Source: a virus. From it: 64,000 bases of DNA. A program made the position numbers and the translations under genes. The DNA lies in the IMG/VR virus record IMGVR_UViG_3300042893_000600, positions 1 to 64,000 of that record; one strand, written 5' to 3'. Of this stretch, positions 2,801 to 37,100 are shown in pieces (position 1 is the stretch's first letter; each line of letters starts with the position of its first letter). The notes beneath the pieces were generated by a model, which saw only the letters and a list, made by a program, of their open reading frames with translations, was not told the origin of the DNA and did not search any database.

Positions 2801-3697
2801 TTATTTGGCTCTGGTTTTGACGCCGTTGATTGGAGAGCCTGCGCCCTTGTCACCGTTGTCGCCGTTGCCTTTCTTTTCAGCGCCGTGGCCTGAACCGTTC
2901 TTTTTATAGAACTGTTTAGCATTAGTGCCGCCTGGTACATTTACATTACCAAAGTTTTCTTCTTTAGTGTTTGGCTTTAGTAAACCGCTTTGTACGCCTT
3001 TGCCGCCTTCAGTACCGCCTTTTGTCATATTAGCAGTTGTACCGCCCATATCGTTCTTACCTGCTACGATTGACTTGTTGTTAACACCGTCATCACCGTG
3101 CTTTGGGTTTGCTACTTTTTCGATGTACTCGCGCATGAAGTTGTCGCCTATGCTGAAGCTATCTTTAACTTCTTCTTCGTCGCCCATGTCGCCCATGTCA
3201 TCGCCGCCCATGTCGCCCATGTCATCGCCGCCCATGTCGCCCATGTCATCGCCTTCACCGCCCATCATCTTTTCGAATTCCATTTTTAGGTCATCTAAAG
3301 CATCTTCTAGGTCAACTACACGATCTTCAATGTCGCCATCGCCGCCCATGTCATCGCCTTCTTCGTCATCACCTGCTTCGATGTCGCCCATGAAGTCATC
3401 AGTAGCATCGCCACCAATTTCGTCACCGTTCATTTCATCGTCGCCCATGTCGTCAGCTTCAAAGCCGAAACCCTCTTCAACATCATCTTCGTCTGCACGA
3501 TTTTCGTCTGTACGATCTTCGTCGTCTTCGTCGTCTTTACCTTCTTCAACATCTTCTTCGAAGTCTTCAGAAAGAATTTCTTCGTAGATTTGTCTAGATT
3601 TTTCAACTACCAGTTGATGGAAAAGCTCTTTGGCTTTGTCTTGTTCTTCAGAAATTAGATACTCGAGCATCTGCTCGAACTTTGATCGATCAGTCAT
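2801..3697 (-). CDS. 68: Acidic prohead core protein, gp68-like
   Basis: Highly acidic 298-residue protein in the T4 gene 68 position (between the gp67-sized protein and gp21). The N-terminal 45 residues form a helix, with KELFHQLVVEKSRQIYEEIL at about 23-42, resembling the gp68 prohead core family; T4 gp68 is about half this length. Residues 45-180 are dominated by D, E, G and M, including GDDMGDMG repeats encoded by three perfect 24-bp units (3181-3252). The C-terminal third is basic, glycine- and asparagine-rich and low in complexity. It starts after a good AGGAGACAAAC site, with a TGTAAATA box 38 bases upstream. The gp68 assignment rests mainly on position and the N-terminal helix. Confidence 0.65.
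   Translation of the reverse strand: MTDRSKFEQMLEYLISEEQDKAKELFHQLVVEKSRQIYEEILSEDFEEDVEEGKDDEDDEDRTDENRADEDDVEEGFGFEADDMGDDEMNGDEIGGDATDDFMGDIEAGDDEEGDDMGGDGDIEDRVVDLEDALDDLKMEFEKMMGGEGDDMGDMGGDDMGDMGGDDMGDMGDEEEVKDSFSIGDNFMREYIEKVANPKHGDDGVNNKSIVAGKNDMGGTTANMTKGGTEGGKGVQSGLLKPNTKEENFGNVNVPGGTNAKQFYKKNGSGHGAEKKGNGDNGDKGAGSPINGVKTRAK
3181..3252 (-). repeat. Three perfect 24-bp tandem repeats
   Basis: Units 3181-3204, 3205-3228 and 3229-3252 are identical and encode GDDMGDMG on the minus strand inside the gp68-like protein. Being in-frame, copy-number change would lengthen or shorten the acidic linker by eight residues without breaking the gene. Confidence 0.95.
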
Positions 3698-3734
3698 GTT
3701 TGTCTCCTATGTGTTTATTGCAAGGCTGTCGATA

Positions 3735-3742
3735 TATTTACA
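3735..3742 (-). promoter_or_regulatory. Possible late promoter box TGTAAATA
   Basis: Minus-strand TGTAAATA 38 bases upstream of the gp68-like ATG (3697), in the 93-bp gap after the gp67-sized gene. It keeps the TAAATA core of the T4 late promoter but not the full NATAAATA, so support is moderate. It would drive gp68-like, gp21, gp22 and gp23. Confidence 0.4.
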
Positions 3743-3790
3743 TATAACTGTAAAATATACGCTTAAATGGTAAGTTTTCGGGGATTTTTG

Positions 3791-4030
3791 TTAAGCAACA
3801 GGCTGTGCTGGTGCTTTATACATCTGTTCAACAAATTCTAGTTCTTTTTCTTGTTCTAAAATATGCTGTTCACTGGCTTTACGCAGTTCGTTTATCTGCT
3901 TTAAAGTCAATCTAGTTTTACGTGTGTCACCTTTTCGCACAGAGGTGTCGTCACGGCCAGCATCATAACGACTGTCAGATGTCACGGCCCTAATATCTTT
4001 ATCAACGTAAAACAATTCTCGTAGTATCAT
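3791..4030 (-). CDS. 67: Small prohead core protein in gp67 position
   Basis: 79-residue charged protein between gp20 and the gp68-like gene. T4 has the 80-residue core protein gp67 at exactly this place, so length and position agree, although I cannot show a firm sequence match. The middle (about residues 40-70, RLTLKQINELRKASEQHILE) is a predicted amphipathic helix; the tail is proline/alanine-rich. The same helix pattern is familiar to me from marine T4-like phage proteins next to gp20. No Shine-Dalgarno site is visible; instead a CATAAATA box ends six bases before the ATG, so the mRNA may be leaderless. Confidence 0.55.
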   Translation of the reverse strand: MILRELFYVDKDIRAVTSDSRYDAGRDDTSVRKGDTRKTRLTLKQINELRKASEQHILEQEKELEFVEQMYKAPAQPVA

Positions 4031-5772: not shown

Positions 5773-8622
5773 TTAACTATACATGTTCTTTGGATTTTTC
5801 TCGAGCGCCGTGATTTGTTTTCTTCCCAAATCATCGCTCTGTGAAAGTAGCTTGTTCATAGTTATATTTAACATATCTAAACCCTTTACTACGTCTTCTA
5901 GAGCAGCGGTCTTGCCGCCTCGCTGTGCTGGTTTATCGTCAGCTTGAGATTTGGCAGCTGGTGCCTTGGCAGCTTGTTCTTTCGCGTCTGCTTGGGCTTT
6001 GGCTTCTTCTGCAGGTTTATTTACTGCAGCAGGCACACTGGCAGCATTGGCTTTCATTTGGGCTCCAAAGCCGGGCAAATTAATGGCATTCAAATCTATA
6101 GCAGGAGTGGCTGCTATGGGTGCTGAGTACTTGCCGGCACCCATAGAGGCTTCTGGTTCTTCTGCGCCAATAGCAGCCATGTTTAATAATGAAGTATCTT
6201 TTTGATACTTTTCTCTAGCTGCTTTTTCTGCTTCGGCACCTTGTTCGATACCAATTAATTTTAACGCTTCTTCTTTTTCTATTTCAGATAATCTGGCTTC
6301 TTGTCCTTGTAAAGTTACTGCTAGTTGTTCTGTAACAAGTTTTTTAGTCTCTTCAACTGATTCTTGTTTTTTACTGGTTTCCCATGTGATACCGTCAGCA
6401 ATTTTCTTTTGTAGCTCTTCCTGTTTTTTTGAAAATTCTTCTTTTATCTTTATTGCTTCGTCGTCTGCCTTCATAACAGCTTGGACTTTGGAAAATTTTC
6501 TATCTTCAACAGCCATTCCTTCAATCAGAATGTTTTTTCTTGCGGCCATGTCTTCATTAAACTTTGATTTTAATTCTGACATTTCTTTTTCAGCACTCTT
6601 ACTGTCATCACTTTGAACACGTTTAGTAGTTGACTCGCCGCCAGTCATGGAACTGATTGATGTGCTAATAGTCTTAGACATTTCTGTCATATTGATATTA
6701 GGTTCTGTCTTAGCAGGCATACTGATAGCTTTGGCAATGCCAGCCATATCAACGGCAGGTGCTTTGGCTGGCATACTAATAGCTTTGGATATACTGCTCA
6801 AGTCAAATCCGTCCATGCCACCTGTAGGATTTCCCCTTGGCGGAGCCATACCTTTCATTGATTCGTATGCTGCTTTAAATTTGTCTTCTTTAGTGTCCAA
6901 GTCTGGAGGAGGAAGTTTTCCAAGTATATTCTTAACACCACTCATGCCAGCAGCAGCAATAGTGTCCTTCATCTGTCCTTGGTTTAATACAAACTCAGGA
7001 CCTTCTTCTGCTAAAGTTGACAGTGTTGGTTGGCTAACATATCCGCCATCTGCATGTCGTGTTAAACCTGTAACCTTACCAGTAATATTTAGAGTGTCGG
7101 CTCCAATGTTTGATAAATTACTCAGAGCTTTTGTAATTTCACCAACTACACCGCCACTTTCGTTTTCTTTTCTTGCTTCTGCTTCGTATTTGCCTTCGCC
7201 TGGCTTGGGCACAAACGGTTGTGGGTTTTGACCTTTCCTGGCGGCATCTTCCATATTGACTGCGGCATTCTTACCCGGACCTGCTAGATTGTTAGCAGTT
7301 TGTTCTCCAATTTCACCTATACGACGGGCGCCACCGGCAATGCTTTCGCCGGTCGCTTTATTCTTAACTTCCGATGCGGCAGCAACACCTGCTCCAAGAT
7401 TTTGTCCAGCTATTTGTGTTGCTATAACTCCTTGAGTTGCTCCGCTAACACGTTCTCCGCCAGGTTTTAATCGACCTTCTTGACTTGCTATAATATCAGT
7501 TCTAATTTTGCTAAGGGCAGTAGCATAATCAGTTTGACTTTTTAATAAGTTTGTATTTCCTTTTACTACACTCATTACACTATCGTGTAATGCCATGTTG
7601 TCTTCTGTACTCTTCTTTAAAATTGTACCTACGCTGCCTGCAGCATCTCCCATGGCGGCCATTCGTAAAAGTGTTGGATCTCTTTGATTACGAGCGTTGG
7701 CTGCTTCTGCTTCCTTGTTGGCTGCTTCTGCTGCAACAATGTTACCTTTGGCCAAGTGGCCCATTTGCTCGCCAGTTTTCTGTGCGGCCTCGCCTAGTAA
7801 TGCGTATTGAGTGGCAGCTTCTTCGCTAGTAACTGTTCCAGTGGCAAACATTTCTTTTGCCATTTGTCCCATACCGCGAGCTTCTGCTTGAGCAAATTGT
7901 TTTTGGAATCCTTCTCTTGCTGCCGCTTCTGCGGCGGCACCTTGTTCAATTCCAATTAATCTTAACTTTGCTTCAATTTGTCCGTCGGTGCTGCGTTTCT
8001 TAGCAGCTTCCATTTGTTCTTCTTTACTTTTGCCTGTGAGTTTGGCAATGGCATCCATCTCTTTAGCTAATGAAGCTGCAGCTTCTCTTGATTTTACACC
8101 TGCGGCACCTTCAATACCCATAGTGTAACGTTGTGTACTGGCTTGTAACGCAAGAACTTCGTTAAGTTCTTTAGCATTGTATCCCATCTGCTGTAGTTCG
8201 TCGCCAGCGTTACTATCAAAGAAACTCTTGCTTAATTTGCCAAATGCTTCAGCACCGCGAGTGACACTGCCACCAAGGCCGGCCATTTGTTTTCCGTTAT
8301 TAGCAATAACGTTAGCGAAATCATTTAGGCTCAATCTACTGCCAGCGGCAGCAACATTCATGCCAATTAGGTCATTGCTAAAATTAGCGCCATGTTTGCT
8401 AAGTCCTTGGAACGTATCAGCACTTGACTTAGCAGCATGTAGGAAAGACTCTGCGCCATCTTTCAAGCCTTCTTTAACTTTACTTGTGTCAAACCCTTGA
8501 TTGCCACCACCGCTTGGTGGCGCACCTCCGCCACCTACAGTTACAGGGCCGCGGCCACTAGATTTCAAAGCGTTTTCAAACGCTTGTTGCATCATTAACT
8601 GATCATTTCTATCTAAAGCCAT
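5773..8622 (-). CDS. Tape-measure-like tail protein
   Basis: 949-residue alanine-, lysine- and glutamate-rich helical protein. About residues 528-550 carry HADGGYVSQPTLSTLAEEGP, the glycine-valine-proline motif common in phage tail tape measure proteins, just before a long helical region. T4 uses gp29 (590 residues) as its tape measure, so this may be the counterpart, though I see no direct gp29 similarity. The segment LIGIEQGAxAExAARE occurs twice (about residues 219 and 787), as does an AISMPAK motif (about 615-640), showing internal duplication. It is divergent from gp26/gp51, the putative tail chaperone pair, across a 66-bp gap with two facing late promoter boxes. An alternative is another long virion protein. 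Confidence 0.55.
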   Translation of the reverse strand: MALDRNDQLMMQQAFENALKSSGRGPVTVGGGGAPPSGGGNQGFDTSKVKEGLKDGAESFLHAAKSSADTFQGLSKHGANFSNDLIGMNVAAAGSRLSLNDFANVIANNGKQMAGLGGSVTRGAEAFGKLSKSFFDSNAGDELQQMGYNAKELNEVLALQASTQRYTMGIEGAAGVKSREAAASLAKEMDAIAKLTGKSKEEQMEAAKKRSTDGQIEAKLRLIGIEQGAAAEAAAREGFQKQFAQAEARGMGQMAKEMFATGTVTSEEAATQYALLGEAAQKTGEQMGHLAKGNIVAAEAANKEAEAANARNQRDPTLLRMAAMGDAAGSVGTILKKSTEDNMALHDSVMSVVKGNTNLLKSQTDYATALSKIRTDIIASQEGRLKPGGERVSGATQGVIATQIAGQNLGAGVAAASEVKNKATGESIAGGARRIGEIGEQTANNLAGPGKNAAVNMEDAARKGQNPQPFVPKPGEGKYEAEARKENESGGVVGEITKALSNLSNIGADTLNITGKVTGLTRHADGGYVSQPTLSTLAEEGPEFVLNQGQMKDTIAAAGMSGVKNILGKLPPPDLDTKEDKFKAAYESMKGMAPPRGNPTGGMDGFDLSSISKAISMPAKAPAVDMAGIAKAISMPAKTEPNINMTEMSKTISTSISSMTGGESTTKRVQSDDSKSAEKEMSELKSKFNEDMAARKNILIEGMAVEDRKFSKVQAVMKADDEAIKIKEEFSKKQEELQKKIADGITWETSKKQESVEETKKLVTEQLAVTLQGQEARLSEIEKEEALKLIGIEQGAEAEKAAREKYQKDTSLLNMAAIGAEEPEASMGAGKYSAPIAATPAIDLNAINLPGFGAQMKANAASVPAAVNKPAEEAKAQADAKEQAAKAPAAKSQADDKPAQRGGKTAALEDVVKGLDMLNITMNKLLSQSDDLGRKQITALEKNPKNMYS

Positions 8623-8688: not shown

Positions 8689-9504
8689 ATGAATCCATTA
8701 CAAAAATACTTTAGACAACCCAAGTTGTTTATCAGTTTGCCCAGCAAAGGGCTGTACTACGAGGAAGGTACTCTACAAGGAGATGTTAGTAAAGTGCCAA
8801 TTTTTGCCATGACTGGCATGGATGAACTCATAATGAAAACACCTGACAGCTTGTTTAACGGTGAAGCCACAGTAAAATTAATAGAAAGTTGTTGTCCATA
8901 TATTACAGACGCACATAAAGTGCCCAGTATTGATCTAGATGTATTATTAGTTTCCATTAGAATGGCAACATACGGTAAAGAAATGAGTATTGGACATACC
9001 TGTACTAACTGTGGTACTGAAAACGACTTTGCCATTGATTTAACTAGTGTCATGGATCACTATGCTGATAAGAATTTTGACAATAGACTAGTAGTTGACG
9101 AAGAAATTACCATTAACTTTAAGCCGTTAAGCTACGAAGAAATGACAATAGTAAACTTGGAAAATTTTAAATTACAAAAAATGCTTGGTCAGATTGCTGA
9201 TATAGATATCGACCGTAGGCAACAAGTCATGGATGATATCTATGCTAAACTAGCTGAAATACAAGTACATGTATTTTTAACTGCCATTGAGTCAGTTCAA
9301 ATTCCCAATGTATTAGTAACTGAGAAAGATCATATTCGAGAGTGGTTGTCTAACACTAACCGAGAACATTATACTCTTATCAAGAGTAAACTTGAAAAGA
9401 ATAAAGAACTTTGGGAGATGCCAAAACAAAAAGTCATTTGCGGCAATTGTGGCACTGAAAACGCTATTGAAGTTGTAATGGACCAATCAAGTTTTTTCGT
9501 ATAA
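8689..9504 (+). CDS. 26: Baseplate hub subunit gp26
   Basis: 271-residue T4 gp26-type baseplate hub protein. The N-terminus (LFISLPSKGLYYEEG, about 13-27) and the FAMTGMDELIMKTPD stretch are typical of this family. Two CxxC pairs, Cys105/Cys108 and Cys251/Cys254, each followed by GTEN, suggest a zinc ribbon built from two knuckles. Its last codons run over a T TTT TTC slippery heptamer (9492-9498) followed by a stem, placing gp51 in the -1 frame with no intervening stop. A minor 347-residue gp26-gp51 fusion is therefore expected in addition to the 271-residue form (inference). A late promoter box lies upstream. Confidence 0.85.
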   Translation: MNPLQKYFRQPKLFISLPSKGLYYEEGTLQGDVSKVPIFAMTGMDELIMKTPDSLFNGEATVKLIESCCPYITDAHKVPSIDLDVLLVSIRMATYGKEMSIGHTCTNCGTENDFAIDLTSVMDHYADKNFDNRLVVDEEITINFKPLSYEEMTIVNLENFKLQKMLGQIADIDIDRRQQVMDDIYAKLAEIQVHVFLTAIESVQIPNVLVTEKDHIREWLSNTNREHYTLIKSKLEKNKELWEMPKQKVICGNCGTENAIEVVMDQSSFFV

Positions 9505-9553
9505 AACTGTTACCCTTGTCTAGATCTGACATCGAAGAGTTGGTTAACAGTTT
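9492..9553 (+). promoter_or_regulatory. Probable programmed -1 ribosomal frameshift site
   Basis: T TTT TTC at 9492-9498 is aligned with the gp26 frame (codons 9493 and 9496), so both tRNAs can re-pair after slipping back one base. Five bases later a stem begins: AAACTGTTA (9504-9512) pairs perfectly with TAACAGTTT (9545-9553), and CC 9513-9514 with GG 9542-9543 across a single bulged T, closing a 27-base loop. After slippage, reading resumes at 9498 (CGT) and stays open through gp51 to 9731. Heptamer, spacer, stem and target frame all agree. Confidence 0.78.
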
Positions 9554-9731
9554 AGAATTAGATACAAAACAAATAAAAGATGAAATCTTTCGCATAAGTT
9601 GGTACATGCGAGGCGGAGTAAGCAGTCAGGATCTAATGCACGTTTACGGCTACGAGGATAGGCAGATCATGAATGAGATTATAAAAGAAAATATTGAAAT
9701 TACCAAAAATAGCCGTATGGCTATTATTTAA
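9498..9731 (+). CDS. 51: gp51-like hub assembly protein, probably made as gp26-gp51 frameshift product
   Basis: The open frame after the slippery site encodes about 77 residues, with EIFRISWYMRGGVSSQDLMH recognisable as the core of T4-type gp51, the baseplate hub assembly catalyst. No ATG exists in the frame before this core. Possible starts are TTG at 9516 or CTG at 9507, neither with a Shine-Dalgarno sequence, so independent translation looks poor. The frame is exactly -1 relative to gp26. In lambda-like phages the tail chaperones G and GT arise by the same device next to the tape measure gene. I infer a gp26-gp51 fusion of 347 residues; a separate TTG-started 71-residue protein (9516-9731) is the alternative. 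The end overlaps the convergent gene by eight bases. Confidence 0.75.
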   Translation, partial: RIKLLPLSRSDIEELVNSLELDTKQIKDEIFRISWYMRGGVSSQDLMHVYGYEDRQIMNEIIKENIEITKNSRMAII

Positions 9732-11046
9732 TTTCGTCGTAACCATAGACGCCGTATTTTTTCTTAGGGTCGTCCTGTATTTTTAAAGTAGGATCAGGAA
9801 TGCCGGCAACACCAACCCTAGCTTTTATGTCATTAAGTTTGTCGTTGCCTACTAGACGATATCCATTTTCATCACTAATTTGTTGATTATTAATGTAAAG
9901 TTTCTTGCCAACCCATTGAATATTCATACCATTTGTAGCTTGTCTTGCGCCATCGGCAGCATCACCAGTTGGTGGTTTTACTGCGGTCTTACCAGGTAGT
10001 GGACCATCTAGTAGTCCAGCTTCCTGTAATCCTTTTTCTAGTAAATCAATAGCGGCTGCTGTCAATGCCCCTGTTGGTTCAGTAATTGCTCTTACCAAAG
10101 AACTATTTAAAAATTCTTTACCAGCACTGGTACGCATGAATATCAAGAAAGCTGGGGCCGCAGGCCCCATTTCAATTAATTTAGAAATACCTTTTGCCAC
10201 GTTAGTAGGCAAGCTAACAAACATACCTAAATATTTTGTTGTTGTAATGCTGGCGCCGCCCAGTGTAGCTGCACCTGTGGCAATACCTTTAAACATGCCT
10301 GACATTGCGCCAAAGAATTTGCTGGCCACTCCAGTATTTAAGGCAACACCAATGGCCAATTCTCCTAACAGTTTCTTTCTTAACTGTTGATACTTGTTAT
10401 AGGCTTCTTGCTCTGACATTTTTCCAAAAGGAGAATCTTTGCCAGCTTTATAATCTTGGTAGTCTTCCTCTAACACGGACAAATCCACGTAGTATTCTCT
10501 TACAAATTCTAAACCCACAACAGTTTTTATCACAGTCATGGCTACATCGGGTATAAATCCCATCCTTGCCTGGGCTGCTGCCTTCATGGAAGCATTGGCA
10601 CCACGCATTTTTAAGTAGGCTTTAATTTTTTCAAACCCTACTTTACTGTCAGGGTCAAATTTTCTCAAGTTTATTTTTTCTGTTTTAGCTACTGTTTTTT
10701 CTAATTGGGCAAGACGCTCAGTAACTTTCTTTTTTAACCACTTGCCGCCTTTACTTTGCCATGACTTAGGAATAAGTTTAAGTATTCCTGCTTTACCCAG
10801 CTTGGCAAAGCCAGGTGTAAACAATAGTACAGCATCTATGAATAGATCATTCCATTCGTCGTCAGTAATTGATTCAGGATCTTGGTTGTATTTGCCAATG
10901 AATTTGTATATTTCGTAGGCACTCCAAGCACTCATGCCTACAGAGATTGCGGTAATTATTGTACCTATTCCAATACCTGCTATTACAAGAGGTACGGCTT
11001 CATTCAATGATTCAGTTCTTTCAGAGACTATTTGATGGACTTTCAT
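9724..11046 (-). CDS. Probable internal head (ejected) protein, function unknown
   Basis: 440 residues, not matched to a named family. The start MKVHQIVSERTESLNE, with L-N-E|A at residues 14-17, resembles the T4 capsid-targeting sequence of internal proteins (short basic N-terminus cut by gp21 at L/I-x-E before A, G or S). Residues 17-50 are strongly hydrophobic (VPLVIAGIGIGTIITAISVG), and further glycine/alanine-rich hydrophobic stretches occur at about 240-310, as in proteins that enter membranes during DNA ejection. Between them are basic helices. It has no Shine-Dalgarno site; an AATAAATA box ends six bases before the ATG. The internal-head role is inference; a tail or membrane protein is possible. 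Confidence 0.45.
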   Translation of the reverse strand: MKVHQIVSERTESLNEAVPLVIAGIGIGTIITAISVGMSAWSAYEIYKFIGKYNQDPESITDDEWNDLFIDAVLLFTPGFAKLGKAGILKLIPKSWQSKGGKWLKKKVTERLAQLEKTVAKTEKINLRKFDPDSKVGFEKIKAYLKMRGANASMKAAAQARMGFIPDVAMTVIKTVVGLEFVREYYVDLSVLEEDYQDYKAGKDSPFGKMSEQEAYNKYQQLRKKLLGELAIGVALNTGVASKFFGAMSGMFKGIATGAATLGGASITTTKYLGMFVSLPTNVAKGISKLIEMGPAAPAFLIFMRTSAGKEFLNSSLVRAITEPTGALTAAAIDLLEKGLQEAGLLDGPLPGKTAVKPPTGDAADGARQATNGMNIQWVGKKLYINNQQISDENGYRLVGNDKLNDIKARVGVAGIPDPTLKIQDDPKKKYGVYGYDEIK

Positions 11047-24700: not shown

Positions 24701-25151
24701 TGTATATCACCCTTCAAAGTACAAGGTTCTTTTTGGATCTAAAGCTACCACAGATTTACAGGCAACATTTAAAGTTGTAAAAAATTCTGAAATAGTAATC
24801 AGTGATAATGATATTAAAACTAGAGTGCTAGTGGCAATATTAGAATTCTTTGCTTTAGAAAATTGGGAATTTGGAGATAATTTCTATTTTAGTGAATTAT
24901 CAACCTACGTCATGAATAAAGTGTCTCCTTATATTGTAAATTTTGTTATAGTGCCTAAACAAAGTACTTTAAGTTTTGGCGGGTTGTACGAAATCCGTAG
25001 CGAAAAAGATCAAATTTTTATCAACGGCGCCGGCATAGATGACATAGAAATTATTTCTACAATAACCGCAAGCAACATCAAGAGTGCCGTAATTCAAGCG
25101 AATCAAACAGCAGTGAGTCAGCAAACAATAACAAGTTTAGGGAGTAACTGA
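21711..25151 (+). CDS. 6: Baseplate wedge protein gp6
   Basis: 1146 residues; joins wedges into the baseplate ring. The first 120 residues (VAEDWKRIYQSFRNADFQSY, then YPEDFNDYIESSEYLALIDM and the RVDLNARENFLELAERRESV region) are the strongly conserved gp6 N-terminus. T4 gp6 is 660 residues; the extra length lies in the middle and C-terminal part, where beta-rich segments are inserted (about 550-900). The C-terminal region with VLFGSKATTDLQATFKV and a final helix is also typical. It is followed by the giant gene with a TGATG overlap. Confidence 0.92.
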   Translation: MSATDRQNRLLVAEDWKRIYQSFRNADFQSYDFENLRRVMISYIRENYPEDFNDYIESSEYLALIDMIAFLGQSIAFRVDLNARENFLELAERRESVLRLARLLSYKTKRNIAASGLLKFNTVSTTQSVYDSNGRNLANQVVAWNDPANTNWYDQFIKVINAALPATRQYGNPDAKQEIYGIPTEQYRFQTVSTSIPVYSFNKPVDGRSMNFEIVSTTFAGKTEIYEEPPSIGNSLSFLYRDSGRGNGSSNTGFFLRFTQGTLNQGSFTLSQPATDESVDLDAVNINNSDVWLYRLDNNGTESEYWAQVPSFEGNNVIYNSLNKSIRNIYGVVTRASDRVSLVFSDGVFGNLPQGTFRTYYRTSNGLNYTVNPKDIKNVSIDIPYISQVGQVETLSVTLSLQSSVSNSGPTETNDSIKTNAPATYYTQNRMITGEDYNISPLSVNQQVVKVKAVNRSSSGISRYFDLVDPTGKYSKTNLFADDGLIYKQEFSDSFRFKYATRTDIEAILYNELSDVLKSSNLKNFYYDNFEKIPVNLLEVKWYNRTLDVNQSTGYIEDTVSGTKQKVSSYTGTLLRFFTVGALIKFTAPAGYYFDKTKNNELVPGSATVLNSATFIWTKAVSIAGDGTANGTGLLFDKSGPIVLNDIVPNTAVLSEIIPAWRTSIESSTITAMVDLVFGNKKFGLRYDIETRLWKIITETNLNTSEVFSLGRQGDATNSKTDSSWLVLFTTDTEYYTVTSRLTRYIFESAQQVRFFFDSSDKIYDTRNNTVVKDVIKVLNINTNPLSPGGTTPFTYDRDWEITEEFRGLDGYVDTKKIQVTFNDSDDDGVVDDPTLFDQLVIPNTYIVLEKYVVAQGQEDYRYISNDSDIVVVVNTQNDIVISQYQDGQYFYIVDIDTVKIYDKIASNFIPTLDYKVFVGRDKIKFQYIHNADYESRIDPGLTNLIDVFVLTKQYDIAYRQWLSGAGTTEPLPPSSDFLYNLLSPELNKIKSISDEIVYHPSKYKVLFGSKATTDLQATFKVVKNSEIVISDNDIKTRVLVAILEFFALENWEFGDNFYFSELSTYVMNKVSPYIVNFVIVPKQSTLSFGGLYEIRSEKDQIFINGAGIDDIEIISTITASNIKSAVIQANQTAVSQQTITSLGSN

Positions 25152-28100
25152 TGGCCTATAGCAACGATCAAAACGAGCCAAAGGTACCTATTTCAAATGT
25201 AGAAAAGCGTTCGAGCGCTGACTTATTACCGAGGTTTTATAGAACACCCGGTAACAAGAAGTTTTTACAAGCAACAGTAGATCAGCTAATTCAACCTGGA
25301 ACAGTTAAAAAACTTAACGGTTACGTTGGAAGACAAACTGCCAAGGCTGTTGTTAGTTCAGATACATTTCTCGAAGCTGCTGATCAAACTAGACAAAATT
25401 ATCAACTAGAACCTGCTGCAGTCATTCAAGACTATCTTGGAAATACTACATTTTTTAAAGATTACATTGATCATATTAACCATATCAGTGTGTTTGATGG
25501 TGTCGTTGACAATCATAGTAGATTGAATCGTGAAGAATTTTATAGCTGGAATCCAAATATCTGCTGGGACAAATTTGTAAATTACCAACAGTATTACTGG
25601 CTTCCTTTTGGTCCTCGTCCTATTGAAGTGTTGGGTAATGAATTAGAAATTATCAGTACGTACTCTGTTACCGGAGTTGACGAGACTGATAATGTTGCGT
25701 ATTTGTTTAATCCCGAAGGCCCGTTAGAGGGGTTGATTAGAAATCCTAAGATACGACTATTTAGAGGTCAAACTTATATTTTTGATATTAACGTTGTTGG
25801 ACATCCGTTTAGTATTAAAACTCAGCGCACTGCAGGCGACCTTTATAGATATACAAAAGGAGTCGATGCCTATGCTGTTGAAAACGGTAAAATTACCTTT
25901 ACCGTTCCAGTGGATGCACCTGATGTATTATTTTATGTAAGTGAAAACGCAGTTGATACCGGCGGCGTATTTCACGTATTGGACATTACTGAAAATACTG
26001 CAATTAATCTAACAACTGATTTTGTTGGAAAAAAGGAATACGTTATTCCTAACGGTACCGCAGAAGGTTTGCGAATCAGTAACGGAATGAAATTAAGTTT
26101 TGGAGGACAAGTGACTCCAGAAGAATATGCCAACGATTTTTGGTATGTAGAAGGCGTTGGAACAGCCATACGATTAGTTAGGGATAAAGATCTAGAAGTT
26201 AGAACATCATTTAATGAAGAAACTAGTATCCTTTTTGATGACAATCCATTCGATCAGTTGCCATTTGGCGACGCTAGTACATTACCTAGCACTAAAGATT
26301 ATATAACAATCAATAGATCGAGCTCTGACAAAAACCCCTGGAGTAGATATAATAGATGGTTCCATCAAGATGTTATTATTGCTAGTGCTGCTGCCAATAA
26401 TGTTCAATCAGGTTTGGATCAAACACAAAGGGCAATTCGTCCTATTATTGAATTTAATGCAGGCATTAAATTACACAATCATGGTCTTAGCTCTAAACAA
26501 AATATTGATGTAATTGATAATTTTACAAAGGATGTTTTTAGTACCATCGAAGGTAGTTTAGGTTATAATGTAGATGGAATTGATCTTGCTGACGCTATGC
26601 GAGTGATTTTCACAAAAGATACAGATATACTTGTTAGAAACAAAATATACCGAGTAAACTTTATCGATGTAGTTGTCCCTAGTCGACAATTATCTTTTAA
26701 CGGAACTACATCGGTTAATATTACTAATAATACTTTTACCTTTGCTAGCGAACACGGCTTGTCGTCTAGTAACCGTGTCACTTACTTAAACAATGGCTTT
26801 GATACATTACCAGGATTAACAAACAGACAAGTTTATTATGTGAAAGTTATAGATTCATTCACCATTGAATTACACACAAATACTGCGTTAACAAAACAGG
26901 TAGACATATTTTCAGCAGTCGATGCTGTTTATAAATTTGAAGTCTTTTCAGGAAGTCGTAGGCAAATAACATTAACAGAAGAATCGGACGCTGTTGCCAT
27001 ACTATACGAATCTGTAACAATAAATTATGGTACTCAAGAAACACTCACATCTAGTATCAATGGCAATCAAGGTCAGACCTATTGGTTTACAGGCACTACT
27101 TGGAAACTAGCTCAAATAAAAACAAAGGTAAACCAAGCTCCGTTGTTTGATTTATTTGATAAAAATCAAATTAGTTTCACTGACACCTCAGTTTATGACG
27201 GCTCTACTTTTGAAGGTAACAAGATTTTTAGTTATAAAGTAGGAACAGGTACAGTTGATAGTGAGTTGAACTTTCCGTTAACATATCAGAATATTAATAA
27301 TATCGGTGATATTGTTTTTGAATTTAATCTATTAACAGACAAATTTGCCTATAAAGAAATAACCAATGTACTATACAAAGATACTGCAACCGGCTATTTA
27401 AAAATATCAAAAGATATCAACAGGGCAGCTTACGAAAACGGATGGACTACAAGTTTAATTGAAGATTCACAGCCTGTGGTCAGAGTGTTTAAGGATCATA
27501 TATATAACGGAACAACTATCCCTTTTCCGATTGATGTTTTTGATAATAAAAACGATCTAACAGATTTAGAAGTTCGAGTTTATATTAATGGAAATCGATT
27601 AGCAAAAGATCAATACACTGTCACTACTAGTGTAGTTAGGAAACAAGTAGAGTTGACTACAGCAGTGACAACTACAGATGTTGTAACACTACGTTGCTTT
27701 GCTAAACAAGCAAAAAATTCTAATGGTTATTATGAACTTCCAATTAGTTTACAGAACAATCCGTTAAATCACAATGTAGAACAGTTTACTCTAGGTCAAG
27801 TAATAGATCATGTAGGATCTATTGTTGACAATATTACAACATTTACTGGCACTTATCCAGGTTACGGTAATCTTAGAGATATCGGCAATTTGAGTCCTTA
27901 CGGCGTCCGCTTTGTACAGCATAGCGGACCGATGAATCTTAGTTTATATCATATTGGATCTAAAAGTTCTAACGTAGTAAAAGCCATAGACATGGCAAGG
28001 AATGACTACGGCAAATTTAAACGAGCATTCATAGTTGCTGCAACCGAAAGCGGAATAGATACAGATCCACGCCGACATGTCGATTTTGTTTTACAGATGA

Positions 28101-31100
28101 TAAACAAGGACAGACCAAAAACAAGCCCATATTACCTGTCAGATATGTTTGGTTACACAGCTTCGAATAGAATAGAATATACTGTTTTAGATTCAAGAAT
28201 AAAAACATATCCGTTAACTAGCAAGTTTGGATTATCAACACTATCTAATAAAAGTGTCAACATTTATCTAAACGGAGACCAACTTGTACACGGCCGAGAT
28301 TACGTATTTGGCGATGACGTATTTTTCGAACTGTTAATTGACATCGTACAAGACGACCTTATTGAAGCATACGAGTATGAAACTACTGACGGATGTTTTT
28401 GCCCTGCCACTCCTACTAAGCTAGGGTTATATCCTAAATTTGAACCTAAGATTTATCTAGACGATACTTACGCTGAACCTACTCGAGTAATACAAGGACA
28501 CGATGGTAGCATCACTATTGCCTTTGACGATTACAGAGATGACTTAATTTTAGAATTAGAAACTAGAATTTTTAATAACATAAAATGCGAGTATAATTCA
28601 GACATTTTTAATATTCACGATTATATTCCAGGCTACAGCAGAACAACTCTGTATTCATTTAAAGAATTTAATAGAATACTATCTAAGTATTTCTTCCAGT
28701 GGACAACTAACATTCAAGAAGATTATACAAAACATATTGGGTACGATCAAACTGATAGTTTTACCTATAACTATCGAGGCAACTTCACACCTGACAATCA
28801 GGATGTTCCCGCAGCATGGCGCGGAATTTATACCTGGTTACTAGATACAATTCGCCCGCATAGTCATCCATGGGAATGTTTAGGATTTAGTATTGAACCA
28901 TCTTGGTGGCAAGATGTATATGGTCCAGCGCCATATACAAGTGATAACTTAATTCTATGGGACGACATTAAGGAGGGTATTATTCGACAACCTGGCGTGC
29001 CTGTTAGACGGGATGTTAAATTTGCTAAGTCCTCGCTAGCTTATGGATTACCAGTCAACGACCAGGGCGTATTAATAAGCCCTAAAGATTCGGGAATGGT
29101 ATCTGGTACTATACGATCAGGCGACAGCGGCTATTTTGAATTTGGAGATCAAGCCACAGTTGAATCAGCATGGAGACGCAGTAGCTATTATGCGTTTGCT
29201 CTTATTGAAACATGTCTGCTAATGCAGCCTAACAGTGTGTTAGGTCGATGTTTAGATAGAAGTAGAATTGTAAAAAATTTAAATAACCAATTAGTATATT
29301 CTGAAACTGGTTTACGTCTACGATTAGAAGATATTGTTATTCCATCAACTAGCAACAGAAATGTAGATACCAGAGCTTATACTTGCGGCCTAATCAATTA
29401 TCTAGTAGATTACCTATCAGGCGATAATGTCTTACGACTAGACGAATACCAGTTAGATTTAACATCTCTAACAAATAAAATAACAACACGTATAGGATCG
29501 TTTACCAGCCAGCCCAAATATAAAATTTTATTAGACAGTAAAACTCCTAGCAGTACAGGCGGTGTGTTTGTGCCAGAAGAAAATTATTATGTAGATTTAA
29601 ATATTTCTAGTGCCATAACAAAAGTTGTTTATAGCGGAGTAATAATAACAAAATTTGCTGACGGATTTGAAGTAAAAGGTTATAATTTTGACAATCCGTA
29701 TTTCACTTATTATCCATCTAGACAAGATGACAGGGTAATAAATGTTGGAGGCATTAGTGAAGGTTACATTACTTGGAATTCTGGCCAAATTTATGCTGCT
29801 GGTAAGATTGTTAAAAATAACAATCAGTATTACAGAGTAAAAACTAATCATACAAGTGTTGAAACATTCGACAGTCAATACTATGCTAGACTAGCTGAGT
29901 TGCCGGTTGTAGGCGGCAGAGACGCTATTTTAAGAAAAACTTGGGATTACGATGAGCCGCAAACTGTGGCATACGGTACTAAGATAACAACTATACAAGC
30001 TATGGTTGATTTTTTACAAGGCTATGGAGCCTATCTAGAACAACAAGGTTTTGTTTTCGACGACTTCAACAACGAGCTTGCCGTTATTACCAATTGGGAA
30101 ACTAGTGTAAAAGAATTTCTATTCTGGTCAACTCAAAATTGGGCCGCAGGTGCAGTTATAAGTTTAAGCCCAGCCGCTAACCGATTAATTTTTAAATCTA
30201 ATATTGCTGCCGTAGATGACCTTACAGATCCATTTTACGGATATAGTATTTTTAGAGTTGATGGTCAAAAATTAGATCCTGAGTTTATAACAACTTATAG
30301 AAAAGACGGCGAATTTACGTTACAGCCGCAAGATACAAATCACGGAATATTTGGAGCTACTTTATTTCTTGTACAAAAAGAACATATTGTAGTATTAGAT
30401 AATACAACGTTATTCAATGACACAGTGTATGATCCTGAAGCAGGATACAGACAAGAAAGAGTTAAGGTACTAGGTTACGTTACTAGCAACTGGAATGGCA
30501 GTTTTGAAATTCCAGGTTTTATCTACGACAGAGCTATTGTTAATGCGTGGACACCTTGGACTGATTTTGCGTTAGGCGACATTGCTAAACACAAAGAGTT
30601 TTATTATAGTGCTAAAAGTTTCTTAGTAGGAACAGAAACATTTAATGATGATAGCTGGGTATTATTAACAGAAAAACCCAAAGCAGAACTATTACCTAAC
30701 TGGGATTATAAAGCTGAGACTTTTGCTGACTTTTATGATTTAGATACTGACAATTTAGATAGCGGACAGCAAAAAATTGCTCAACACTTAATTGGATATC
30801 AGAAACGTCAGTACCTTGAAAACATTATTCAAAATGATGTAAGCCAGTACAAGTTTTATCAAGGCATGATTATTGAAAAAGGCACACAGAATGTTTTAAA
30901 CAAACTGTTTGATGTGCTAAGTGCCGATGGCATGGAAAGTTTAACATTCGACGAAGAGTGGGCATTCCGTGTTGGAGAATATGGCGCAGTGGATACATTT
31001 GACGAAGTTGAATTTAAATTAGACGAAAGAGAATTTAAAACTAATCCTCAACCGATTGAGTTAGTAAATTCTATCGATCCGTTGCTAACAGATTTTGTCT

Positions 31101-34100
31101 ATAGACAACGCCCTGTTGATGTTTATGTTAAGCCATATAACTACACTAATGATATTTGGCCAGTTAAAACTACCGGCACATATTTAAGAACTCCGGGATA
31201 TATACGCTCGGAAGATGTAAAACTTAGCATAGATAATTTACAAGATTTAATCACTGTTGACATTTCGTCTTTTAAAGAAGGTGATTATGTATGGTGTGCG
31301 TTTGAAAATCGAGACTGGAATGTTTATAGATTTAGTAAAACACCTTTTAAGATTAACAATATTACATACTCGAACAAAGTAATAACTATTGTTTGTGATA
31401 AAGTAATAACGTTAACTGTTGGAGATGTAGTAGGGATAGAGAATAGTGTCTCTGTTCAAGGATTCCACATAGTTGCTTCAGTTTCTCTTAATACATTTAC
31501 TGTATCTAAAGAAGTACAAGGTTGGCAAACTTGGACTGACCAAGATACAGTGTTAAGTTATCAATTTAATTTACATCGAGTTGAAAACATCGATAACGCG
31601 AATTCTATTATTCCACGTTATATTAAACCTAACGAATTAATTTGGGCAGACAACAACGGACACAGTAAATGGTCAACGTATCAATACGCTCCTGTTTATA
31701 GTCAAGGTACAATTTTAAATATCGACGTTAGGACAAATTTAAACTTTGGTTTAGCAACAGCAATTACTGACGACGGAAACGTGGCTGCTGTAACAGATAT
31801 CGACGGCGTTACAATTTATGAAAAAAGTTCTTCGGATAATGTATGGTTAAGTAAACAACGCATTTTGACTACCGCTGTATTGTCGCCTGGCGAGTTTGGT
31901 TCTCTAATCAAATTTAGTAAAGACGGTCGCTGGTTGGCAATTTCAGCACCATTGGCAGATATTGGATTTACAAATCAAGGGTGTGTATTCTTATACGAAC
32001 AAGGCACCGACGGACAATTTGATTTATCAAATACTATTGTTAGTCCTGTACCTTCAGCTGGCGAAAAATTTGGTATAAATCTTGCTTTTGGAAGAAAACC
32101 TAACCCTACTGTTTTGTATAGCGCACTAACAGGCACATACACTGAAAACGGTAACGGAGCAGTATGGACAGTTACACGTATCGGATCTTCTTATGTATTA
32201 CTAGTTTCCGACAGAGGCTTGCGATATAAAGCCGGCGAAACTATTGTCATTCCAGGATCTCAATTGGGCGGCACAAATGTTGACAACGATTTAACCATCA
32301 TTATCAATACAGTAGATTCTGTCACTGGATCTATAGAAAACTTTACTTACACTGGTTCGGGCCTAGGCGATGTTTATATCTTGGCAATAACAGCAGAAGG
32401 TTATAACAGCAATCAGGGTAGAGTTTACACTTATAAATTTGACAGTATTACAGTATGGAATCAATTTGTAACATTGTCAACTAGTACGATTTCGGGTGAC
32501 TACTTTGGATACGATTTAGCAATTGACACTAATTTAACAATCGTAGCGTCTGCTCCATCAGCAGATACCGAATCTGGTAAAGTATTTGTATATTCTTATA
32601 CTGGATCTAACTATTCCTTGGTTAAGACATTAGTAGGTAACATAGTTGACAACGCTGAAAGATTTGGCGAAAGCGTATCGATAACAACAGACGGTGACTA
32701 TATTGCGGTTGGTAGCACATTAATGAATGTCAGCAACAAGAAAGATGTAGGGCAAATCTTAATCTATAAGCAATCAGATTCTACATATACTACGGGCACG
32801 CCTTATCAAGTTATTGATAGTCCCCGTAACGAAGTTAACGAACGTTATGGTACCGACATTGAATTTATGAATAATAAAACACTAGTAGTGTTTTCTAAAA
32901 ATGGTAACATAGAAAATATCACGGTGTTTGATGAATTATCTACTACATTCGATAACAGTAATTTACAACTAATCGATGTAGCAGTGGATGTAGGCCGTAT
33001 TGATATTTTTGATATGTACAACACTAAATTTGTCTACGGCGAGAGTCTAGATAATATCAGTGTTATTAATTCTGGTTACGGTGAAGAAATTGCTGTGGGC
33101 AATAATACTGTCTTGGTAAGTGCTATTAAAGAAACTAGTCAAGGTTTTACAAATTCAGGAAACGTTTATTCTTATATCAAGCCCGGAGAAAAATTTAGCT
33201 GGATGCCTATTCACACGCAAGTTGATAGCGTAGACATAGGAAAAATTAAAAAAGTTTATCTCTATAATACAGTAACTAACGAGCTAGTAAAATATTTAGA
33301 CGTCATTGATCCTTTACAAGGTAAGATCCCAGGAGTAGCAGATCAAGAAATCAGATATAAAACTTTCTACGATCCTGCTATCTATTCTGTTGGAACATCG
33401 TCAGTTAATGTTGATGACGGTATGAATTGGACTACGGTACAAGTTGGTCAACTATGGTGGGATCTAACACGAGCTAAATTCTTAGATACTCAAAGCGGCG
33501 ATGTAATTTACAGAACAAGTAGCTGGAATACACTGTACGAAACAGCAAGTATAGACGTTTACGAATGGGTAGAAACTTCGTTATTGCCTTCAGCTTGGAT
33601 TAAGCAATCAAGCACTGATGCCGGAATAGCCAGAGGTATCAGCGGCACACCAAAATACAGCGACGAAGTTTATAGTGTTAAAAAACGTTACGACTCTGTT
33701 AGTAAAACTTTTAAAGAAACTTATTTTTATTGGGTAAAAGGAAAAAAAGATGCTCCTAACGTTTCAGGCAGAACGTTGAATAGTTATGATGTAGCACAGT
33801 TAATTGCTGATCCTGCTGGATATGGATATAGCTTTATTGCTTTCACAGGCACAAATAGTTTCGCATTAGTGAATTGCGAAAAATATTTACAATCTAATAA
33901 TGTTGCGTTAAGTGTACAGTATTGGTTAAGCGATAACAAAACTAGCAACTATCATAGTCAGTGGAAATTATTGAGTACTAATAGAAACACTATTATACCT
34001 ACAGCTATTGAAGAAAAGTGGTTTGACAGTTTAATTGGCAAGGACTCCAATGACAGAGTTATACCTGATACTAGCTTGCCGTTAAAGAACCGACACGGTA

Positions 34101-37100
34101 TTGAATTTAAACCTAGACAAAGTATGTTTATGAACAGAGTCGAGGCTCTTAAAGTTTTTGTTGAAAGTGTAAATGCTTCTATTAAAAATGAACTTATTGC
34201 CGATGATTATGACCTTGCCGAATTAGATACTTACGAACCTATACCAAGCGCAGTGTCGGGATTGTGGGATATTGCTATAGACACAGATTCAGAATTACGA
34301 TTTATTCCTACTACACTACTTCAAACAGCAGTGTTAAAACCTATAATTATCAATGGTAGAATTACGGGTATCACAATCGTTTCATCAGGATACGGATATG
34401 GCACACTTAGAGAATACCCTAAGACTAATACACTAGATCCTGATAGATGGTATGGTCCTAATGTAAAAATTACAGGTAGCGGTATAAACGCTAAAATTAA
34501 ATCTATAATAGATGCTCAAGGCAAAATTGTTGACTATGAAATAGAAAATAGCGGTGAGGGATATACAGCGAACACCGCCATTATTGTTCGAGATGTATCG
34601 GTACTCGTTAGAAGCGACAGCGAGTCGTTAGATTTATGGAGCATCTATTCATGGAGTGCTCGCATCGAACAATGGTCTAGAATAAAAAGTCAAAGCTATG
34701 ATGTTAGAAAATATTGGCAGTATTTAGATTGGTACGCCGATGAATACAATCAATTTGTAAAGATAGACTATCTTGTAGAGAACACTTACGAATTAACAAC
34801 TACCTATATGGATGTTGGCAGCATTGCCAAAGTTAGGAACGTGGGCCGCGGCGGCTGGCTGCTACTACTAAAAGTTGCTGATACACAAACAATAGATTAC
34901 ACACAAAATTTCACAGTTATTGGCAGACAGAATGGTACAATAAAATTCTTAGAATCACTGTATCAATTCAAAGCTAGTACACTGGGATTCGATGGTCCGT
35001 TGTTTGATGCTGATATTTTTGATAACAGTCCTACGACAGAATTGCGAATAATTCTTGAAACAATACGAGACAAAATCCTAATCGATGAATATCGCACATC
35101 CTACTTAAAAGTATTTTTTGCCTGTGTTCGATATGCACTAAGCGAACAGACGTTTATCGACTGGGCGTTTAAAACTAGCTTTGTCAAGAGTCAACATAAT
35201 GTAGGTGAGCTAAAACAAAAAGTCACTTACAACAGTGACAATTTAGAATTTTTTGAAGAATACATTAAAGAAGTTAAACCCTATAGAACTAAAGTACGTG
35301 AGTACGTTAGTAACTACACTTCACTAGATTATTCTCAAAGTTCAGTATCTGATTTTGATTTACTACCTGTGGTTAACGATAACAGAAGTGTTGCGCCTTT
35401 GTTGGTTCAAGTAAATGATAACGCTGAAATTGTTACAGATTTTAGTGAAATATTAACATATCCATGGCGCCATTGGCACGATACCGTGGGCTTTGAAATT
35501 ACTTCTATAGAAATAGTAGATGGCGGCTCCGGATATATTACCAAGCCGATAGTAAAAATTTACGAAGAATATCAAGGTATAGTTTATAAATTATCCAATA
35601 GTGTGGCAGCAGAAGCAAAAGCCTACATATCAAACGGACGAGTGAATAGAATAGAATTAGTAAGCAGCGGCACACGCTGGATACGAGCTCCTAGAATTGA
35701 AATCATAGGAGGTCTAGCAACTACCGGATCTGCTGCCACCGCAGTGGCAATTATAGGCCAGGGTGTGGTTAGAAGTAACTATGTTAAAATTAAATTTGAT
35801 AGAACTAGCAAAGTTTATGAAATTACAGAACTTATATCAGTTGAAACGTTCTCTGGTACAGGTTCACGAACTCAATATTTGTTAAAATGGGCACCTGATA
35901 TAAAGGTAGGTGAAAGTTATGTAACTATTGATAATGCTGAAGTACTCAGGGATGATTATACATTAGAAGTTGTCAAATCTGTAACTAAAGGTTATACTAG
36001 TTACAGTGGACAAATTACTTTTAAAAACGCACCTCCTGCCAACAGCGCAACACCAGTTAACATTCGTATTGAGTACAAAAAAGATTTTGTACACTTAAAT
36101 GCTCCTGATAGGATTAATTTTTACTATGATCCACAAACGGGACAGCTGGGTAAAGATCTAGCACAGCTAATGACTGGCATTGACTACGGTGGTGTAGAAA
36201 TCACTGGCCTCGGGTTTGGCGTTAATGCCGGCTGGGATGCACTGCCGTGGTTTAGTGAACCGTGGGATACTATTGATCCTGAATTTGAAGATTATATTGT
36301 AACTGTTAGTTCGATAACATATTCTTATCGTATGCCATATGTTCCAGAGGAAAATCAACAGATCAATATCTATATTAGTCGATATACTGGCACAAGCTAT
36401 GAACCTTCTATTAGAATAGATGATCCTAACTATGCTACAATTTTACAAACAAACAATGACGCATTAATGCTATCCTTTACAGGAGATGGTGAAATTGATA
36501 TTATCAATTTGCCAATTACAGTAGCGTTATCTGTAGATGATAGATTGATATTCCGTAAGGATACTAGCGATGGTAGTTACGGAGCACGTCCAGACGAATA
36601 TGATACAAAATTAAGTGGCGGCAATTTAGCCTATACCAGTGCTACGGGATTGGCAGCAGACGACATAATTCTAGACGGGGACGACTTAGTAAGCGCAAAT
36701 ACTAGTTACGCTCCTGAAGAAGTTGTTCCTGGGCAAGTTATGGACACTGTGGCAATCAAAGTCTATCACAGACCAAGCGGCGGCTGTCCGAACATAATGT
36801 TTAATCATCATCGTGGCAACGCATCTACTACAGATTTTAAAATAGGTCAATATTTTCCTAACGATAGTTCGGTAATAGTAAAAGTTGATAATCTAATTAA
36901 AACTTTAAGCGTGGATTACACTATTGATTATCAAAACAACAATATTGTTTTTAACACTGCTCCGAGTCAGGGTGTTGCGATTGATATTTTAAGTATCAGT
37001 TTCAACTCTGCCAACATATTAGATTTAGATTATTTTATTTCTGATGGTGTTACCACTGAGTATTTGACAAAAGCCAATTGGTTGCCTACAATAGCATCAA

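Follow-up and report, generated by a model that had tools for sequence, protein, structure and literature searches.

The question raised by this locus is how, and as what, a second reading frame at the end of a phage tail gene is translated. In the stretch of virus DNA analyzed here (64,000 nucleotides, referred to as the window, and part of a 77,195-base virus record), a gp26-like gene at 8689-9504 on the plus strand encodes a protein of 271 residues with two CxxC motifs, and is overlapped at its end by an open frame for which the original prediction proposed a programmed -1 ribosomal frameshift, joining gp26 to gp51 in the manner of the lambda tail chaperones G and GT. The gene ends in AGT TTT TTC GTA TAA, with the zero-frame stop codon at 9502-9504. 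As had been predicted, it carries the slippery heptamer T TTT TTC at 9492-9498 in the phase X XXY YYZ (zero-frame codons TTT at 9493 and TTC at 9496), followed by a spacer of 5 nt at 9499-9503, and the downstream frame is exactly -1 and open from the slip point, spanning 77 codons and a stop at 9498-9731 (plus strand; stop codon at 9729-9731). This frame, the 'gp51' of the original prediction, is here called the extension. The claim that it lacks both an ATG and a ribosome site also held for the window: no Met codon precedes its WYMRGG motif and no Shine-Dalgarno site was seen on inspection by eye, with TTG present as codons 7 and 15.

The chance occurrence of such a heptamer was assessed by scanning the window in six frames, using all stop-to-stop spans of 100 codons or more. 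In-phase TTTTTT[CT] was found five times, and only the copy at 9492 is followed by a long -1 frame (77 codons), the -1 runs after the other four measuring 0, 3, 0 and 6 codons. Together with the conservation described below, this rules out a chance heptamer.

For comparison with relatives, IMG/VR was scanned with the short protein, yielding 63 loci; one of these, on a 383-kb contig, encodes an identical gp26. The peptide patterns used for fetching these loci do not cover the end of gp26 that bears the heptamer. A tblastn search of a phage collection gave a further 62 records, all below 60% identity and from large phages (e.g. Atu_ph07, 121Q, RaK2, GAP32, CBB, PA5oct and SCTP-2), 12 of which were analyzed. 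With the window, the set comprised 76 loci, and 58 distinct loci after merging. The phage had been taken to be T4-like, which does not hold in the sense of a close relative of T4, as its best named matches are large phages, among them Atu_ph07, Phosso, GAP32, 121Q, RaK2 and PA5oct.

The gp26-gp51 junctions of these 58 distinct loci were compared. The heptamer T TTT TT[C/T] lies in phase at the end of gp26 in all 58, down to about 24% identity, as TTTTTTC in 56 and as TTTTTTT in two (CM1 and XacN1). The extension is in the -1 frame in 56/56 loci with a complete extension (L006 and L014 being incomplete) and has a length of 70-80 codons throughout, whereas the zero-frame stop varies in position, from 10 to 40 nt past the start of the heptamer. 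Codon choice was evaluated in 36 representatives below 80% identity, using alignment columns with one residue in at least 90% of sequences and excluding Met and Trp. The first Phe codon of the heptamer is TTT in 36/36 and the second TTC in 34/36, while in the remaining 17 of the 19 filtered columns the share of the top codon is 0.29-0.77. As TTT accounts for 0.75 of the Phe codons in gp26 bodies, the constant TTC in second place runs counter to usage.

These data bear on the explanation that competes best with frameshifting, according to which the extension forms a small gene in its own right (gp51), reached by ribosomes that restart after terminating at the gp26 stop, with the T-run doing no more than encode a conserved Phe-Phe. 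In its favor, the annotations of 121Q and Phosso start the downstream gene at an ATG that overlaps the stop of gp26, and an ATG is the second or third extension codon in Atu_ph07 (codon index 1), 121Q and Phosso, so that restart could supplement or replace slippage in these three phages; TAATG stands at the stop in two heptamer-free phages of the wider family, Cygsa01 and Vibrio D510. Against it, Phe-Phe is held as TTT TTC in 56/58 loci (TTT TTT in the other two) and is always preceded by T (58/58), whereas other conserved columns vary their codons; the zero-frame stop shifts relative to the extension; and the start region of the extension in the window contains no ATG. Within the first 25 extension codons, an ATG is present in 22/58 loci, and neither ATG, GTG nor TTG in 27/58. 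A gp51 gene with its own start is unlikely for most loci because nearly half of them have no usual start in this region and the two Phe codons hardly vary, and we consider restart improbable as a general explanation.

A programmed -1 site is expected to be accompanied by a stimulatory structure. In the window, a proposed stem is formed by a 5' arm at 9504-9512 (AAACTGTTA) and a 3' arm at 9545-9553 (TAACAGTTT), both on the plus strand, with its first base pair 5 nt 3' of the heptamer. The perfect 9-bp stem of the original prediction was reproduced; its extension to 11 bp with one bulge was not, since the fold adds two base pairs beyond a 1x1 mismatch instead. The folding z-score is -0.91 over 91 nt and -2.23 over 70 nt, and comparison with synonymous shuffles gives a p of about 0.02. 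The stem is thus weak in the window sequence alone and becomes convincing only across relatives.

RNA folding was therefore evaluated in 35 of the 36 representatives (L014, which is cut short, was left out). The 70 nt 3' of the heptamer have a mean z of -2.51, compared to -0.23 for a control stretch of gp26, and z is below -1 in 27/35 downstream segments and in 9/35 controls (Wilcoxon p 8.7e-6, with kinship ignored). Helices of 8 bp or more were found in 20/35 representatives, beginning 5-6 nt past the heptamer in 14 of these 20. Synonymous shuffles that keep the amino acids of the extension were beaten at the 0.05 level in 17/35 (kinship ignored) and not in the other 18; by the simple helix score, 15/35 have no 8-bp helix. 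In the register of the window stem, all nine pairs are formed by other bases in two of the relatives (L012 and L052) and eight of nine in a third (L054), and other groups of loci have their stem in a different register. A single register common to all loci was discarded, as those of the window, L029 and L054 each fit only some groups. From the comparison of sequences, many loci, though not all, form a stem, with arms that differ in sequence between them, and a stem 5-6 nt downstream is selected in many; the loci without an 8-bp helix may use another structure or none.

Slippage of RNA polymerase at the T-run, gaining or dropping a T, is the least probable of the explanations and deserves hardly any credence: six consecutive T are in principle prone to such slippage, but the run stays at six T followed by C in 56/58 loci, in exact X XXY YYZ phase, and the stem selected 5-6 nt downstream in many loci is what is expected of a ribosomal -1 site.

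The short protein belongs to the family PF12322 (T4_baseplate; E 8e-19, 68.6 bits, cut-off 24.5) and also matches the baseplate hub family phrog_150 (E 2.8e-23). It was modeled by AlphaFold2 with a mean pLDDT of 88.2. The best fold match of this gp26 model in BFVD (E 1.7e-21) is annotated as 'Baseplate hub assembly protein, bacteriophage T4-like', and a Foldseek search of the PDB returned no solved structure at an E-value of 0.001. At BFVD ranks 27 and 42-48, the gp26 model also matches proteins of 438-553 residues (query TM 0.41-0.51) encoded by Motura, Special G, RSF1, RP12, Eowyn and other phages; judging from these models, such proteins may represent chaperones that further large phages make from one gene.

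The extension, in turn, is conserved as a protein in the relatives. In 157 overlapping pairs with 77-codon extensions and 60-95% identity, changes in the -1 frame at codon positions 1, 2 and 3 number 3138, 1738 and 5563, respectively. Between the window and L003, dN is 0.016 and dS 0.31, and between the window and L004, dN is 0.024 and dS 0.45; for L009, L010 and L012, dS is saturated and gives no value. By these substitution patterns, the extension evolves as a protein. Its AlphaFold2 model consists of three helices (mean pLDDT 89.6, pTM 0.66). It has no viral fold match in BFVD at an E-value of 0.001, and searches of Pfam and PHROG gave nothing above cut-off or below E 0.01; the label 'gp51' is in this respect not confirmed.

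For comparison, T4 gp26 and gp51 were searched against the same families. Both match PF12322, gp26 over residues 1-206 of 208 (E 8.8e-64) and gp51 over residues 1-201 of 249 (E 3.9e-52); gp51 additionally matches phrog_634, 'baseplate hub assembly catalyst', over residues 147-246. T4 gp51 thus combines a PF12322 part with a phrog_634 part, the same layout as the frameshift product with its gp26 domain and extension, and on these family matches it is a paralogue of gp26 with a C-terminal extension. With hhalign, the extension shows a faint match to the C-terminus of T4 gp51 (E 5.8e-4, probability 29%, 31 columns), and the fusion protein matches four T4-type gp51 sequences over 242 columns (E 1.4e-4, probability 53%). 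In the pertinent part of a T4 review, both gp26 and gp51 are described as hub assembly chaperones. The best reading of these comparisons is that the two frameshift products correspond to the separate genes 26 and 51 of T4, where the long form is a separate fused paralogue; here it would come about through a -1 signal, read as such from the heptamer and the -1 frame. As a side observation, the gp51 frame of Acinetobacter phage ZZ1 (301-1055 of its locus) is broken, and the annotated gene begins inside it.

The original prediction further described a tape-measure-like gene next door on the other strand. Strand and place are correct: a gene for 949 residues lies at 5773-8622 on the minus strand, divergent from gp26 and between the portal and gp26 genes. 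The identity as tape measure did not hold up to the same degree. The protein has no Pfam or PHROG family match below E 0.01 and no match to T4 gp29 (hhalign E 0.35), and the genes in the same place in seven named large phages were likewise rejected as gp29 homologues (E 0.022, probability 2%). It does match these same-place genes weakly (hhalign E 4.4e-6, probability 87%, 135 columns). The depositors of RaK2 recorded tape-measure similarity for the gene in that place, and those of PA5oct found its product by mass spectrometry. The neighbor is not kept everywhere, being replaced by small ORFs in Atu_ph07 and by a 262-aa ORF in XacN1. Given the negative family and gp29 searches, the RaK2 annotation and the patchy retention, it is a possible tape measure protein. 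The next ORF downstream of gp26 and the extension (9724-11046) is also on the other strand. Further along, amid tail and fiber genes, the window contains an ORF of 4651 residues (25151-39106, plus strand) with a single FG-GAP repeat match (E 2.2e-8).

Frameshifting in tail chaperones has precedents. In lambda, ribosomes that slip by -1 shortly before the G frame ends produce a longer, C-terminally extended chaperone, GT (passages of PMC5009743; Xu, Hendrix & Duda 2004). The present locus shares with it an in-phase heptamer close to where the short frame ends and a -1 extension, in the window without an ATG of its own. The lambda slippery heptamer differs from T TTT TTC; in lambda, the tape measure gene follows directly downstream in the same direction, while here the candidate gene is divergent, and no solved structure matches the present gp26 model at an E-value of 0.001. 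A -1 frame free of stops, with GTTTTT as an invariant poly-T motif where TAC-N ends, is also described for the chaperones of phage Adele, Vandenendeviridae and Andersonviridae (passages of PMC12846349); these are other phage families than the present large phages, and the likeness is one of motif and frame.

No report of such a frameshift for gp26/gp51 had been known to the original prediction, which is wrong at the level of the family, according to the relevant passages of papers that cite Vladimirov et al. 2022. The gp26/gp51 chaperone genes of T4-like phages were identified by Vladimirov, Gautam & Davidson 2022 (Virology 566:9-15, as represented in these citations). The Adele paper (PMC12846349) credits them with poly-T as known -1 signals in the TAC-N genes of T4-like phages, so the mechanism had already been reported for the gp26 family, and the PRFect paper (PMC10885494) with T4-like phages in which a short gene is accompanied by a longer, fused one. 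Within the passages retrieved from the open-licence literature, no frameshift is described under the names gp26/gp51, and none for the lineage of RaK2/121Q-type large phages. In the passages of the phAPEC6 structural paper (PMC7247149), strings such as 'gp26' denote other gene numbers (e.g. gp262c), and neither a tape measure nor a chaperone is mentioned. The present short protein is of the same family as T4-like gp26/gp51 (PF12322, phrog_150), but its lineage is far from T4, with large phages as the best named matches at 24-30% gp26 identity. Vladimirov and colleagues reportedly found frameshifting conserved in several T4-like groups, T4 itself being said to use genes 26 and 51. What is new here is the large-phage lineage, the compensatory changes in the stem, and the exceptions.

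Taken together, the locus very probably encodes a tail assembly chaperone in two forms by programmed -1 ribosomal frameshifting, a short one of 271 and a long one of 347 residues. The signal, its conservation, the reading frames and the gp26/gp51 homology can be read directly from the sequences; slippage itself, its rate and the roles of both products we infer. The heptamer in 58/58 loci, the frame in 56/56, the stems and the homology to T4 gp51 strongly support the central claim of the original prediction, that gp26/gp51 are, by way of a -1 frameshift, the counterpart of lambda G/GT. Most ribosomes would terminate at 9502 and release gp26 (TAC-N, 271 residues). A minority would pause at the downstream stem, the two Phe tRNAs would move back on T TTT TTC by a single base, and a further 77 codons would be translated. 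The resulting TAC-NC of 347 residues would comprise 270 residues of gp26 followed by the three-helix domain. If the division of labor is that of lambda G/GT, coating of the tape measure protein may fall to the gp26 part, and recruitment of tube or hub components to the extension.

To place the signal in the wider family, 11 named phages of other groups were picked by hand from match lists of 1262 and 1332 records. Seven of them (P-TIM68, S-TIM4, S-CAM8, DLP6, AS-szw, S13 and Bakedbeans) have an in-phase TTTTTTC and a -1 extension. In S-SCSM1 (3675-3874 of its locus), TTTTTTC is in phase, the -1 frame stops four codons past the slip and the open extension is found in the remaining frame, which points to an error in sequencing or to a variant shift. 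CBA120, Vibrio D510 and Cygsa01 have no heptamer, with a shorter TTTTC left and the extension still in the -1 frame; the TAATG stop-start overlap in D510 and Cygsa01 suggests restart, and the CBA120 junction has neither heptamer nor ATG. Aeromonas phiAS4, T4-like by annotation, shows no heptamer or extension at the end of gp26.

From this distribution, the odds are about even that the -1 frameshift on T TTT TTC is the ancestral means of making two forms of gp26 in T4-like and large phages, and was replaced at least twice, in the T4 group by a duplicated gene (genes 26 and 51) and in phages such as Cygsa01 and Vibrio D510 by stop-start restart; the order of these gains and losses we infer. For genome annotation, the frameshift reading would correct current entries in large phages: of the 12 named records, seven give the downstream piece an internal start, two begin it at an ATG that overlaps the stop of gp26, two omit it and one carries no annotation. 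The relatives also provide a natural set of varying stems beside an almost constant slip site. If true, a slip site that stays fixed while its stem changes in bases and position would make this one family in which the evolution and loss of a recoding signal can be seen.
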